A stretch of DNA of 64,000 nt. Origin: Infirmifilum lucidum (GTDB lineage Archaea > Thermoproteota > Thermoprotei > Thermofilales > Thermofilaceae). Made by a program: the position numbers and the translations under genes. The stretch's first letter is position 1. The number at the start of each line of letters is the position of its first letter. This document shows, one piece after another, positions 1,755-7,073 of this stretch. Below the pieces are notes generated by a model, which saw nothing but the letters and a program-made list of their open reading frames with translations, did not search any database and was not told the origin of the DNA. Location of the stretch: positions 124,001 through 188,000 of the forward strand of contig NZ_CP062310.1 of assembly GCF_014876775.1 (NCBI RefSeq). Reading direction: 5' to 3'.

Positions 1755-1972
1755 GAACCGAAGTCGCTAACCAGACCCGACTTTCTTATGTGCTTCGTAA
1801 GTGAGCACCACGGCAAGTACTGATAAGCCTGCTCCGTCAAGGTGTCCATTGAGCCCGAAAAGAGACTCTAGTTGTCTATCTCTACAGGGGCCAAATAGCT
1901 ACTCAAGCTTGTTGTGCGAGAATATCTCCGAGAATGTGCACCATGGGACTCCTTTCGCAGTCTCTTTATGTG

Positions 1973-1986
1973 AAAAATTTATAGCT
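1973..1986 (+). promoter_or_regulatory. TATA-like element before the PglX-like gene
   Basis: An AT-rich segment with TTTATA at about 1979-1984, 18-32 bp before the ATGs at 2002 and 2011. It supports a start there rather than at the upstream GTG (1801). The 67 residues encoded between 1801 and 2001 are serine/cysteine-rich and do not look like protein from a thermophile. Confidence 0.4.
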
Positions 1987-2001
1987 AAAAATATTAAAAA
2001 G

Positions 2002-5000
2002 ATGTTGACTATGTCGTTTAAAGGCATAGACATTGATAACATTATCCACTGTATTCGAGATTCCGTGCACAGTGCACACACCGAGGAGGACTTAAGGGTT
2101 CGTGTGTCGGCCTGTATCGAGGAAAAGATAATAAAGCCTCTCGGGATCACGACCTACGGGAAATACGAGTACACTCTCGTCTCGGGCGTCCGCCCTGACG
2201 CTCTCTACGGGCACGTCATAGTGGAGTACAAGGCGCCGGGAAAGCTTTCAAGAGAGGGAGATATAGCCAGAGCCAAGGAGCAGGTAATCAATTACATAAT
2301 GAAGGAGGCCCGCTCCAAGGAAGAGTGGGGCAGGTACTTGGGGATCATAATAAGCGATAGGATTGCTTTTGTGAGGTACGACAGGCCCAGGAACCAGTGG
2401 ATACTGCGCGGCCCATACGAGATCTCCAGGGAAACCCTAATCAAGGTCATCGAGGCCATCAGGGGCCTCTCAAGGAAGAGCCTGGACGCCGACCACCTGC
2501 TCGAGGACTTCGGCTCTAAAAGCCCCGTCGCGAGGCAGGTAGTCAGGGTGCTTTACAGAAAGCTCTCCGAGGCGCTCAACGACAAGAAACACGCGAAGGT
2601 AGAGGTTCTCTTCCAGGACTGGCTCAGGCTCTTTAGGCAAGCTACCGGCTACGACCCCGAGAAGCTCAAAGAGATAAAGGAGCTCGCAGAGCTCTACAGC
2701 CTGGCCGGGAAAGTCAACTATGACAGGTTGCTCTTCTCAGTGCACACCTACTTCGCTCTCATCATGAAGCTACTGGCGGCCGAGGTGGTGTACCTGTATG
2801 GCCGGGGGAAGTTCCTCAAGTCCTACGTAGCTGAGCTCGAAGACGCCTACATGCAGGGTGGCTCGGAGGCATTACGGAATATGATGACAGAGCTCGAGGG
2901 GGGAGGCCTCTTCAGGAAACTCCTGGGGATAACGAACTTCCTGGAGGGGGACTACTTCGCGTGGTATCTTGAGGTTCTCGACGAGGAGCTCGCGGACGCC
3001 GTAGCGCTGGTCTTGAGGACACTGGAGAACTACGAGCCCGCGACGCCGCACCTGGAGCCAGAGTTCACCAGGGACTTGTTCAAGAGGCTCTACCAGAACC
3101 TCATACCGGGCGACCTACGCCACCACCTAGGCGAGTACTACACACCCGACTGGCTCGCCGAGCTTGTCCTAGATGAGGTGGGGCTTACCGACGAAAAGCT
3201 GGAGGAGATGGGAAGAGACGACCCCCTGAAGCCGCTAGGCATCAGGGTCTTGGATCCTGCCTGCGGTTCTGGGACTTTCTTGATCGCCTATCTGAAAAGG
3301 CTGAGAATGTACGCCGAGAAACACTTCCTTCTCGACGTGCTTGCCGAGTATGCTTTGAAGAACGTCGTGGGCTACGACCTGAACCCCCTGGCTGTCCTCA
3401 CTGCGAGGGCGAACTACCTGCTAGCAATAGGTGACCTACTCGCACACGTTAAAGGAGAGCACGAGCTACCAGTTTACTTAGCTGACTCCATAATGGTTGA
3501 GGCCAGGAGCACGCTCGTCGGACAGGTTTACGTGCTGAGGACAGCGGCCGGCCACTTCGAGATCCCAGTTGAAGTAGTCGAGGGAAATCTACTAAACGAG
3601 ATTCTAGGCATAATCGAGGAAACAGTTCCGCTCAAGTACAGCGAGGAGGAGTTCGCCTCGAGGCTCAGGAGGAAGCTCGGCAAAGACAGCAACATAGTTT
3701 CCGCTCTAAAGGATCTCTACAGGACGTTTAGGAAACTGGAGGAGGAGGGCAAGGATAGGGTGTGGGCCTCAATACTGAGGAACACTTTCGCGCCGCTGGT
3801 CAAGGGCAAGTTCGACTACGTTGTCGGGAACCCGCCATGGGTCAACTGGGAGAACCTGCCAGAAGAATACAGAAAAATAAGTGAATTCCTGTGGAAAAAA
3901 TATGGACTTTTAGGTAGAGGACGAGGACTTGGAAAAGTAAAAAGAGACCTAGCAATGCTCTTCCTAGCAAGATGCTTTGACCTCTACTTAAGAGATGGTG
4001 GTATCTTAGGATTTCTAATACCATTCACTGTTTTTAAGACACAGGCTGGTGCAGGTTTCAGAAGCTACATAGCGTCGTGGAAGATTAATATGATTCACGA
4101 TACGGTAACACTGTATCCATTTGAAGGCGCGGTGAACAGGGCATCAGCCATAGTGGTTGAAAAATCAAGGCCAACAACTCCGTCGAGAGAACTAAAGGTT
4201 AGACATGTAGTATGGATAAACAAGTATGGTGGGCCTATACCCACAAACATGCCTCTTGAGGAAGTCCTTAAAGTAACAAGGAGAGAAGAGATGGTTATGA
4301 TGCCGTTAGGTAAAACTCCAGACGCACCATGGATGCAGATTACGGAGAAAGCTAAAAGAGCTGTGGAAAAAGTCCTGAACTATCCGGCACCCAGGACTTA
4401 TGAGGCTCATGCAGGTGTCTATACGGCATTTAACCAAATATATTATGTAAAGGTGCTAGATAAGGATGGTTACTTAATAATAACTAATCCGCCAGAGCCT
4501 GGGCAGAAAAAGAGTGCTAAACAGGTTACAGTCAAAATAGAGCCCGACCTGGTTTACCCGCTCATTAGAGGGAGAGACGTGAAAAAGTGGAGGGTAAGTT
4601 ATAAAGATAGATATGCAATCGTTCCTCATGATCCGAAGACAGGCAAGCCGATACCTGAAGAAAATATTAAAATGAATTGTCCAAAAACATACGAATACTT
4701 TTACACATACAAAAGTGAGTTAGAAAATCGTTCTATACATAGGCTTTGGGGTAAAGACAACCCATTTTATAGTGTATATGATATTGGTGCTTATACATTT
4801 GCTCTATATAAGGTTGTTTGGAAAAGAATTGCTGGCGCAATAACTGGGAAAGCTACAGAGTTTGCTTGTGCCGTAGCGGGGCCTAAAAGTATCTTGGATG
4901 TTCCTAAGCCCGTTATACCTGACGATGGAACTATACTCATACCGTTGGATAATGCTGATGAAGCATACTATATAGCTGGAGTACTCAACTCGACTATCGC

Positions 5001-5640
5001 TAGAGCCATAATCGCATCATATACTTACGAGTTGAGACAGGAAACACATATTGTAGAGAACGTTAAAATACCAAAGTATGCTGGCGATGACGTTCAGAAA
5101 CGTATCGCTGAGCTGAGCAAAAAGGCCCATGAACTTGCTGAGGAGATTTACGGCAAGGGTAGAAACTATTTAACAAGTGAGTTGTCAAGAGTTGAGAGCG
5201 AGCTTGACAGGGCTGTTGCACAGCTCTACGGTATAACCGAGGAGGAGCTCGAGGAGATTAAGAGGGTTTACAACATTCTTAGAGGTGAGTTCTCTGAGGA
5301 AGAGAGTGAGGAAGAGGAGGAAGTTTTCGCTCGTCCAAGCGTTTATTTTGTTAAAACTGATGTGAGGCCGGGCGTGAGGGATTATATAACTGTCAGAGTG
5401 TCTACTGAAGGTCTTGGAAAGCTCAAGCTCTCTCTTAAGGCTCCGTGGGGTATGAAAGAGCTTGTGTTGCCTGATGGCGAGCATAAGATTGAGGTTCCGC
5501 CTCTCGAGAGGGGTAATTATAGTGTAGGGTATAGTTGGGTTTGTGGGGAGTATTCTGGTGAGGGCTCTGTCGATATTGTCGTTGGCGAGCTAAAGAGTCC
5601 TAAGAGGGGTTTTTCTCAGCAATTTTTGGGTGATATTTAA
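2002..5640 (+). CDS. PglX-like / type IIG-like nuclease-methyltransferase fusion
   Basis: About 1212 residues from ATG 2002 (the frame is open back to a GTG at 1801). Near residue 66 lies a PD-(D/E)XK-type nuclease motif, RPDALYGHVIVEYK, with D, E and K in the expected order. An N6-adenine methyltransferase core follows: motif I VLDPACGSGTF near 415 and catalytic NPPW near 609. The C-terminal half should hold the target-recognition domain, followed by an acidic linker (EEESEEEEEV) and a beta-rich, Ig-like tail of about 100 residues. The order fits type IIG/Eco57I enzymes and PglX. It would methylate host DNA and perhaps cut unmodified DNA. Its stop overlaps the BrxL-like start. Composition turns AT-rich from about 3850, just after NPPW. 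Confidence 0.85.
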   Translation: MLTMSFKGIDIDNIIHCIRDSVHSAHTEEDLRVRVSACIEEKIIKPLGITTYGKYEYTLVSGVRPDALYGHVIVEYKAPGKLSREGDIARAKEQVINYIMKEARSKEEWGRYLGIIISDRIAFVRYDRPRNQWILRGPYEISRETLIKVIEAIRGLSRKSLDADHLLEDFGSKSPVARQVVRVLYRKLSEALNDKKHAKVEVLFQDWLRLFRQATGYDPEKLKEIKELAELYSLAGKVNYDRLLFSVHTYFALIMKLLAAEVVYLYGRGKFLKSYVAELEDAYMQGGSEALRNMMTELEGGGLFRKLLGITNFLEGDYFAWYLEVLDEELADAVALVLRTLENYEPATPHLEPEFTRDLFKRLYQNLIPGDLRHHLGEYYTPDWLAELVLDEVGLTDEKLEEMGRDDPLKPLGIRVLDPACGSGTFLIAYLKRLRMYAEKHFLLDVLAEYALKNVVGYDLNPLAVLTARANYLLAIGDLLAHVKGEHELPVYLADSIMVEARSTLVGQVYVLRTAAGHFEIPVEVVEGNLLNEILGIIEETVPLKYSEEEFASRLRRKLGKDSNIVSALKDLYRTFRKLEEEGKDRVWASILRNTFAPLVKGKFDYVVGNPPWVNWENLPEEYRKISEFLWKKYGLLGRGRGLGKVKRDLAMLFLARCFDLYLRDGGILGFLIPFTVFKTQAGAGFRSYIASWKINMIHDTVTLYPFEGAVNRASAIVVEKSRPTTPSRELKVRHVVWINKYGGPIPTNMPLEEVLKVTRREEMVMMPLGKTPDAPWMQITEKAKRAVEKVLNYPAPRTYEAHAGVYTAFNQIYYVKVLDKDGYLIITNPPEPGQKKSAKQVTVKIEPDLVYPLIRGRDVKKWRVSYKDRYAIVPHDPKTGKPIPEENIKMNCPKTYEYFYTYKSELENRSIHRLWGKDNPFYSVYDIGAYTFALYKVVWKRIAGAITGKATEFACAVAGPKSILDVPKPVIPDDGTILIPLDNADEAYYIAGVLNSTIARAIIASYTYELRQETHIVENVKIPKYAGDDVQKRIAELSKKAHELAEEIYGKGRNYLTSELSRVESELDRAVAQLYGITEEELEEIKRVYNILRGEFSEEESEEEEEVFARPSVYFVKTDVRPGVRDYITVRVSTEGLGKLKLSLKAPWGMKELVLPDGEHKIEVPPLERGNYSVGYSWVCGEYSGEGSVDIVVGELKSPKRGFSQQFLGDI

Positions 5641-7073
5641 TGTCTTCGGATCTTTTTGCGAAGATTAGGAGGTACTTTGGTGACTATGCTACGGATAAAA
5701 ATATAGCTAGTGTTGTAGAGTTGTCGAAGCTCCCGAGGTTTGTGGCTGAATATCTTGCTACGTACTTTTCTCATAAATATCCTGGTGATTGGGAAAGGAG
5801 GTTGCGGGAGTTCGTAAGTGAGTATTATTATGATGTTGGCGAGAAGGAGTTGTTAAAGTCGAGGTTGGTCGAGGATAAGGTCGTTAGGATACTTGATGAG
5901 TTGAGGGTGTGGGTGGAGCTTGGGAGTGGTGAGTATAGAGGGATTATAAGGGCTTTAGACGTCAGCGACGCTGTAGTTCCTAGGGAGATAGCGAATGCGT
6001 ATCCAATAACTATGGTTACCGGTGCTTGGGGCCTTTTAACATTGGTTTATGACCCTTCAAAGATCCCAAGGAACAGGAGGGGGGAGGCTTTGGCATCGCC
6101 GATTATCGTATCCGAGTTTAAGCCTCTTCAGACAGCTTCAGCAGATTTAAATGTTCTCAGGGAGGCTAGGCAATACTTTACTTTTGAAGAGTGGGTTGAT
6201 GTGCTCGTGAATACTTTAGGGCTTAACCATGAGATCTACAGTCTCAGACAGAAGTTGTTGATATTGTCGAGGCTTATTCCGCTGGTGGAGGAGAATGTGA
6301 ACCTTATGGAGTTCGGTCCCAGAGCTACAGGGAAAACATATACTTACAGGAATGTGAGCGCGTATACGAGGATAATAGCTGGTGGTCTAATATCTCCGGC
6401 AGCGCTCATATACAACTTGAGGACAGGCATGCCCGGTGAGATAGCCGTCAGGGATTGTGTTGTTTTTGATGAGATAAGCAGGGTGAGGTTTCAAAATCCT
6501 GATGAAATGATGGCTAAGCTTAAGGATTACATGGAGAGCAGTCAGTTTGAGAGGGGGAGGCAGAAGGGATCTTCGGGTTGTTCATTAGTGTTCATGGGTA
6601 ATGTCGAGGTGGAGAAGAGGCCTGAAGGATACGTGCCTGTAGAAGACCTAACCTATGAACTACCAAAATTTATGAGGGAATCGGCATTCATAGATAGGAT
6701 TCATGGAGTACTGCCGGGATGGGAAATTCCAAAAATAGGTCGCTCGAAAGCCTTCCTATCTAAAGGGTATGGTATAGCATCAGACTACTTTTCAGAAGCA
6801 ATGCATACTATGAGGAAAATAAGTTATGCCACAGAAATTGAGAAATACGTGGAATTGCAAGGAAGCATCACGGTGAGGGATGAAAAGTCCGTCAAGAAGA
6901 CCGTCAGCGCCTTACTAAAACTTCTCTTCCCAGATGAAGCCTTCGATAAGAAAGAATTAAAACAGGTGGTTGAGATAGCCGTCGAGATGAGGCAGAGAGT
7001 GAGAGATTGGTTGCACAAGCTGTCGCCGGAGGAGTTTCCACTAAATACCCTGTCATTCAGTATTAGGGGCTAA
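5640..7073 (+). CDS. brxL: BrxL-like AAA+ protein, short form without Lon-type protease domain
   Basis: A 477-residue protein coupled to the upstream methyltransferase by a TAATG overlap. Walker A is GPRATGKT (residues 226-233) and Walker B is CVVFDEIS (273-280). The segment RIHGVLPGWEIPKI (about 353-366), followed by SDYFSE, is the most BrxL-like part. BrxL proteins of BREX systems are DNA-binding hexameric ATPases related to Lon and MCM and are usually near 680 residues; here the C-terminal Lon-like protease domain is absent. It probably acts on DNA together with the methyltransferase in phage or plasmid exclusion. The BrxL assignment is from memory of family motifs. The ATPase call is firm. 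Confidence 0.75.
   Translation: MSSDLFAKIRRYFGDYATDKNIASVVELSKLPRFVAEYLATYFSHKYPGDWERRLREFVSEYYYDVGEKELLKSRLVEDKVVRILDELRVWVELGSGEYRGIIRALDVSDAVVPREIANAYPITMVTGAWGLLTLVYDPSKIPRNRRGEALASPIIVSEFKPLQTASADLNVLREARQYFTFEEWVDVLVNTLGLNHEIYSLRQKLLILSRLIPLVEENVNLMEFGPRATGKTYTYRNVSAYTRIIAGGLISPAALIYNLRTGMPGEIAVRDCVVFDEISRVRFQNPDEMMAKLKDYMESSQFERGRQKGSSGCSLVFMGNVEVEKRPEGYVPVEDLTYELPKFMRESAFIDRIHGVLPGWEIPKIGRSKAFLSKGYGIASDYFSEAMHTMRKISYATEIEKYVELQGSITVRDEKSVKKTVSALLKLLFPDEAFDKKELKQVVEIAVEMRQRVRDWLHKLSPEEFPLNTLSFSIRG

Follow-up and report, generated by a model that had tools for sequence, protein, structure and literature searches.

A Type IIG restriction enzyme with a C-terminal Ig-like domain is encoded beside brxL in Infirmifilum lucidum: a candidate two-component defence system

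Among BREX types, BrxL has been reported only from Types 1 and 4, where its gene follows a larger one, pglZ, whose product ends in an Ig-like β-sandwich (PMC12839542). This domain closes Type 1 PglZ and its core is kept in Type 4, whereas Type 2 has a replacement and Type 3 lacks it; the authors of that work suggested that it senses invaders (PMC12839542). BrxL binds double-stranded DNA and is required for restriction by the Acinetobacter and E. coli BREX systems (PMC10164562, PMC12839542), and disruption of the ATPase site of the Acinetobacter protein, for which the Walker B substitution E280Q is a catalytic mutant, abolished restriction (PMC10164562). Other systems unite restriction and modification in a single polypeptide. 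Type IIG/IIL enzymes of the DrdV and MmeI type combine an N-terminal PD-(D/E)XK nuclease, a γ-type N6-adenine methylase and a specificity region, and Type ISP enzymes (LlaGI, LlaBIII) add an ATP motor, an SF2 helicase within the same chain. A survey of archaeal defence treats Type IIG enzymes as a 'module alone' (PMC12988326).

Here, we describe a gene pair from the archaeon Infirmifilum lucidum in which a Type IIG enzyme is encoded immediately before a short BrxL. Sequence comparisons suggest that this IIG-BrxL pair, which recurs in heat-loving archaea and some bacteria, is an undescribed two-part defence system. The first protein has the three-part chain of the Type IIG/IIL enzymes, which differ from it in having neither a C-terminal Ig-like domain and tail nor a coupled AAA+ gene. 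As in BREX Types 1 and 4, brxL follows a larger gene ending in an Ig-like β-sandwich, but the pair is without PglZ, BrxC and PglX, its upstream enzyme is a different one, its BrxLs fall on separate branches, and sequence homology between the Ig-like domains was not found; Type-4 BREX retains PglZ throughout, whereas the host genome has none. The pair has the same set of parts as Type ISP enzymes (nuclease, ATP motor, methylase and specificity region) and a Foldseek likeness to them in the methylase/specificity part, but its motor would be a separate MCM-like ring. A full-text literature search, outside which subscription journals and preprints fell, so that an earlier description is possible, returned no account of the pair.

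BrxL also lies beside a DNA methylase and outside a recognised BREX operon at an Hma-like and a DISARM-like locus, which differ from the pair in their methylase families and in having extra genes. At the first (L161:6972-14726, genome G060), BrxL is preceded by an HmaB-like methylase and by a protein that matches HmaC weakly; among the genes listed none was recognised as an Hma helicase, for which BrxL may stand in. At the second (L157:6906-18186, Thermus thermophilus plasmid pTthSNM3-3b), BrxL lies among a DrmD-like helicase, an NYN protein and a DrmMI-like methylase, and the upstream protein, of 689 aa and with no Pfam or PADLOC match, ends in NPLLDELLA.

The window, by which we mean the whole 64,000-nucleotide stretch analysed, comprises bases 124001-188000 of the 1.63-Mb I. 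lucidum genome (99.95% complete), the genome of an archaeon whose class also includes Pyrobaculum oguniense. The features of the pair are collected in Table 1. The stop and start codons of the two genes overlap by one base, as the initial annotation had observed, an arrangement consistent with translational coupling; in most homologous pairs the junction is likewise an overlap of 1-92 nt or a gap of a few nucleotides. An upstream GTG at 1801 offers an alternative start (frame 1801-5640, 1279 aa), possible but unlikely, because homologue alignments begin at about 2002. Two small proteins with no assigned function are encoded 5' of the pair (652-1754), the first with a sub-threshold HEPN match (E=0.054). 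An empty-site comparison within the host genus found no match in sister species for the DNA flanking the pair.

Table 1. Features of the IIG-brxL pair, in window coordinates
Feature	Position	Strand	Description or basis
Type IIG gene	2002..5640	+	1212 aa; PADLOC, Pfam, homologue starts, AF2 model
PD-(D/E)XK nuclease core, D66 ... E75-x-K77 (RPDALYGHVIVEYK)	2197..2232	+	on core strands of AF2 model
Methylase motif I, DPACGSG	3253..3273	+	alignment; Pfam N6_Mtase/MmeI_Mtase
Methylase motif IV, NPPW (N6-adenine)	3829..3840	+	sequence motif
Approximate target-recognition region	4309..5000	+	varies among homologues; weak TaqI_C PF12950, E=0.002, below cut-off
Acidic low-confidence linker (tether) before Ig-like domain	5293..5328	+	pLDDT <50 at model residues 1086-1097; Glu-rich in homologues
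Ig-like seven-stranded β-sandwich, proposed BrxL-docking domain	5338..5583	+	AF2 pLDDT ~84-94
Short basic/hydrophobic C-terminal tail (SPKRGFSQQFLGDI)	5584..5637	+	consensus differs by lineage
TAATG stop/start overlap, one base common to IIG gene and brxL	5638..5642	+	
brxL	5640..7073	+	short BrxL, 477 aa; TIGR02688, PF13337, PF20442
BrxL Walker A, GPRATGKT	6315..6338	+	alignment
BrxL Walker B, D277 E278 (FDE)	6468..6473	+	invariant

The first protein matched the PADLOC profile REase_MTase_IIG PDLC03630 with 1193 bits, covering all 1100 model positions, passed Pfam Eco57I and also matched N6_Mtase and MmeI_Mtase. The PADLOC match reaches no further than residue 1162 in the numbering of the 1279-aa frame, and the Ig-like domain and tail lie outside it. 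The initial annotation had placed a nuclease motif and an N6-adenine methylase in this one protein, and both hold up in comparison: none of D66, E75 and K77 varies among the 11 pair-encoded homologues of alignment A1, nor among the 18 BrxL-linked IIG enzymes that include the region, and DPACGSG and NPPW are invariant among the pair-encoded homologues of the same alignment. The AF2 model of residues 13-1212 (mean pLDDT 86.7) has a confident nuclease-methylase-specificity body, and Foldseek searches with the whole protein returned CamA, M.BseCI, PglX, DrdV (~1180 columns) and Type ISP enzymes including LlaBIII. A Pfam search found no helicase domain in it. Carrying a nuclease, a methylase and a specificity region on a single chain, the protein is predicted to be a complete Type IIG restriction-modification enzyme. 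Its family is widespread in archaea and bacteria, mostly without BrxL; relatives occur alone, but the branch to which this enzyme belongs is linked to brxL. Seventeen relatives were found in IMG/VR viral contigs, at 25-37% identity. One BrxL-free relative (L080:9053-12265, genome G002) has VYE in place of EYK and thus no nuclease motif, and may be methylase-only.

The second protein scored 508 bits against the TIGR02688 equivalog (cut-off 329) and matched PF13337 and PF20442, in agreement with the earlier description of an AAA+ partner with BrxL motifs. It has the BrxL architecture of an N-terminal DNA-binding region and an MCM-like AAA+ ATPase, and across 16 homologues neither the Walker A (GPRxTGKT) nor the Walker B (FDE) motif varies, except for single substitutions at positions other than the catalytic K and E. 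Its alignment with the Acinetobacter BrxL structure 8EMC (679 residues) spans residues 13-463 of the latter, and the Lon-like C-terminal domain of the Type-1 form is absent from the 477-residue protein. This does not disqualify it as a BrxL, because Type-4 BREX BrxL is likewise short and without the Lon-like domain (PMC12839542). A second short BrxL occurs in all seven host-genus genomes sampled (L076:10421-11839, the host's own, at C1:1458451-1459791; L017-L021; L024). It follows the gene of a predicted membrane protein for which no family was recognised; the end of that membrane protein is near-invariant (NRIERLL or NLIDDLLP) while its remaining C-terminal region is divergent. This second BrxL may have a non-defence use.

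Among 349 genomes of the phylum, BrxL was found in 26 and some match to the IIG protein in 76, with about 17 full-length or contig-cut orthologues. Across many families, the IIG gene is directly followed by a brxL in the same orientation, and the neighbours of the two mostly differ. Scanning GTDB contigs added pairs from Caldarchaeum, Bathyarchaeota, Methanodesulfokora, Alkanophaga, a Methanophagales archaeon and Thermotogaceae, bringing the total, with duplicates counted once, to about 20 genomes of diverse archaea and Thermotogota. There are exceptions: genes intervene between the two at L090, L091, L098 and possibly L111, and the IIG frame is interrupted at L091, L105/L074 and L139. Protein distances for IIG and BrxL are correlated (Mantel r=0.86, p=1e-4, n=17), and on the strength of this co-variation and the conserved pairing we reject chance neighbourhood. 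Four pairs have a small zinc-ribbon protein (~75-81 aa), which could be a regulator, encoded directly or shortly 5' of the IIG gene (L063:5879-6112, L065:5649-5894, L067:6050-6274, L075:15517-15741). Several genomes also have, repeatedly and close to the pair, proteins that by eye look EVE/PUA-type (L063:5007-5900, L074:5691-6110 and other cluster cl2 loci).

The new feature of the pair-encoded enzymes is their extra C-terminus, an acidic tether, an Ig-like domain and a tail; Foldseek matches to the domain were PKD, complement/macroglobulin and other Ig-like folds. We aligned 54 IIG proteins and counted the residues past the shared core. The 18 encoded with brxL have 128-161 such residues and the 34 without brxL have 0-44. 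The two other rows are L075, with 131 extra residues and a contig that ends inside a brxL starting directly after the IIG gene, and L078, a broken pair left out of the count. Adding L075 to the 18, the extra domain is present in 19/19 BrxL-linked enzymes and in 0/34 others, eight of which have <3 kb of downstream sequence, making the absence of brxL less secure there, though they too are without the domain. The corresponding Fisher value (2e-14) ignores relatedness and is not to be leaned on. A tree of the core region, built with the extension removed, shows at least nine changes in the presence of brxL, six of which well-supported branches make unavoidable. The extension matches brxL in every case, and all six strictly independent pairs agree, domain with brxL (sign test p=0.03). 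Domain labels in this test were assigned by hand and are confirmed by the alignment-based extension lengths. Two cases of decay agree with this. In L078, brxL is broken and so is the IIG frame, immediately ahead of the domain. At L134:2046-3676, on an Omnitrophota contig, a domain-less IIG enzyme is followed by two other genes and then by only a C-terminal brxL remnant, an apparent joint decay of the pair.

The initial annotation read the locus as a minimal BREX whose built-in nuclease had replaced PglZ and BrxC, with a PglX/Type IIG-like fusion as its first component. Much of this stands: the pair is conserved, the BrxL is real, the nuclease is intact, and pglZ and brxC, said to be missing within 20 kb, are absent both just left of the window and from the whole genome. 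Family-by-family profile searches of the complete host genome gave no match to PF08665 for PglZ and none to NF033441 for BrxC, and the same searches do detect control genomes. The fusion label fails, since the enzyme scores 1193 bits as a IIG enzyme and only 51.5 bits against the best BREX PglX model (cut-off 400), far under every BREX PglX cut-off; its likeness to PglX is limited to the shared methylase core. PglZ was present in 3/20 BrxL-bearing genomes checked: in G271, from the same phylum, it lies directly upstream of that genome's own long BrxL, and in G050 and G043 the matches are weak and far from the IIG-brxL pair. In the BrxL tree, the pair's proteins fall on a small number of branches among the archaeal-type short BrxLs, separate from BREX BrxLs and from the second BrxL of the host genus. 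As the enzyme is IIG by profile, its family also occurs without BrxL and the BrxL branches are separate, a restriction enzyme recruiting BrxL fits better than a BREX system shedding parts.

We also compared the IIG C-terminus with that of PglZ. By hhalign, no homology was found between the IIG Ig-like domain and PglZ C-terminal domains, and widening the set to more PglZ proteins encoded next to short BrxLs yielded no more than a local match of 23 columns (42% probability); a claim of sequence homology is unsupported, and we limit ours to a similar fold and position, with the fold of PglZ as described in PMC12839542. We also tested a tail motif, [LIFM][DE]x[LMF][LFIVM] within the last 13 residues, which was written after seeing the data. 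It occurs in 7/16 BrxL-linked IIG enzymes and 0/37 others, against a background of 12/348, and also in five other non-PglZ upstream partners. In a forward test at further Bacillota and Thermotogota loci it occurred in 0/8 with a short BrxL and in 3/37 with a long one, which refutes it as a general BrxL-partner motif; the typeable upstream genes at those loci all encode PglZ. Its occurrence in non-PglZ partners is a post hoc observation on the sequences.

We favour, with a probability of about 0.6, the reading that the pair is a two-component, ATP-dependent restriction-modification or exclusion system in which the Ig-like domain docks BrxL. The IIG protein would recognise a DNA site, methylate adenine there as a mark of self, and cut unmethylated DNA through its PD-(D/E)XK domain. 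The tethered Ig-like domain and tail may recruit the short BrxL, as an MCM-like AAA+ ring, which the enzyme, positioned at an unmethylated site, would then load or license on that DNA. Driven by ATP, BrxL might block replication, or might move along the DNA and make cleavage more effective. The reading is favoured because the catalytic motifs are intact, the pairing is conserved, the two proteins co-evolve and domain and brxL co-occur strictly. Against it stand the many IIG relatives that persist without BrxL, the broken frames or intervening genes at L090, L091, L098, L111 and L139, the finding that Salmonella BREX can do without BrxL (PMC12839542), and the failure of the tail motif in its forward test on BREX PglZ proteins.

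We considered other readings of the pair. That it is two independent genes merely co-located in a defence island, as defence genes cluster and the IIG family is often solitary, is highly improbable: order and strand are constant, overlaps are short, flanks differ, r=0.86, and the domain tracks brxL perfectly in the sample. Descent from a BREX system stripped of PglZ, BrxC and its other components, in which the IIG enzyme would serve as PglX, could draw on BrxL being a BREX protein and on the methylase core common to PglX and IIG. We consider it very unlikely, since the enzyme is not PglX by profile, most pair-bearing genomes checked are without PglZ, the pair's BrxLs branch separately, standalone IIG relatives have the same nuclease, and no intermediate locus was seen in which this IIG enzyme accompanies pglZ and brxC.

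Two further readings are less improbable. BrxL might be a modification or safety partner, aiding methylation or restraining the IIG nuclease, for example during replication, rather than an effector; translational coupling and the co-occurring domain would suit any functional partnership, and the second BrxL-like gene of this genome (L076) sits in a non-defence-looking operon. This we regard as unlikely, given that in BREX systems in which this has been tested restriction depends on BrxL but methylation does not (PMC12707154), and that BrxL-free relatives retain nuclease and methylase motifs, so that BrxL is not required to tolerate the nuclease. Somewhat better, but still on the unlikely side, is the idea that the Ig-like domain has another role, binding DNA or an invader protein, and is lost with brxL as one evolutionary cassette. 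Ig folds are versatile, the Ig-like domain of PglZ has itself been proposed to sense invaders (PMC12839542), and a deletion across the gene junction could take domain and brxL together; about nine joint losses or gains across a stop codon are, however, most simply explained by direct dependence.

The two-component reading extends to a broader idea, which we put forward tentatively and consider doubtful as a whole: BrxL could be a portable AAA+ effector ring into which different DNA-recognition enzymes (PglZ for BREX Types 1 and 4, a Type IIG enzyme for the present pair) plug by way of a C-terminal Ig-like domain and tail. The link between the PglZ and IIG domains is hypothetical, resting as it does on fold class, position and co-occurrence in place of homology. 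If the idea is true, the Ig-like end of PglZ would be a BrxL-coupling module and not an invader sensor, a testable role that is suggested also by the distribution of this domain among BREX types, which matches that of BrxL (PMC12839542). The pair would reduce the question of how BrxL is recruited and functions from six BREX proteins to two, both heat-stable and one with a specific, removable domain. Finally, solo Type IIG enzymes can gain and lose an ATPase partner, and defence-finding tools that score IIG as a 'module alone' would miss it.
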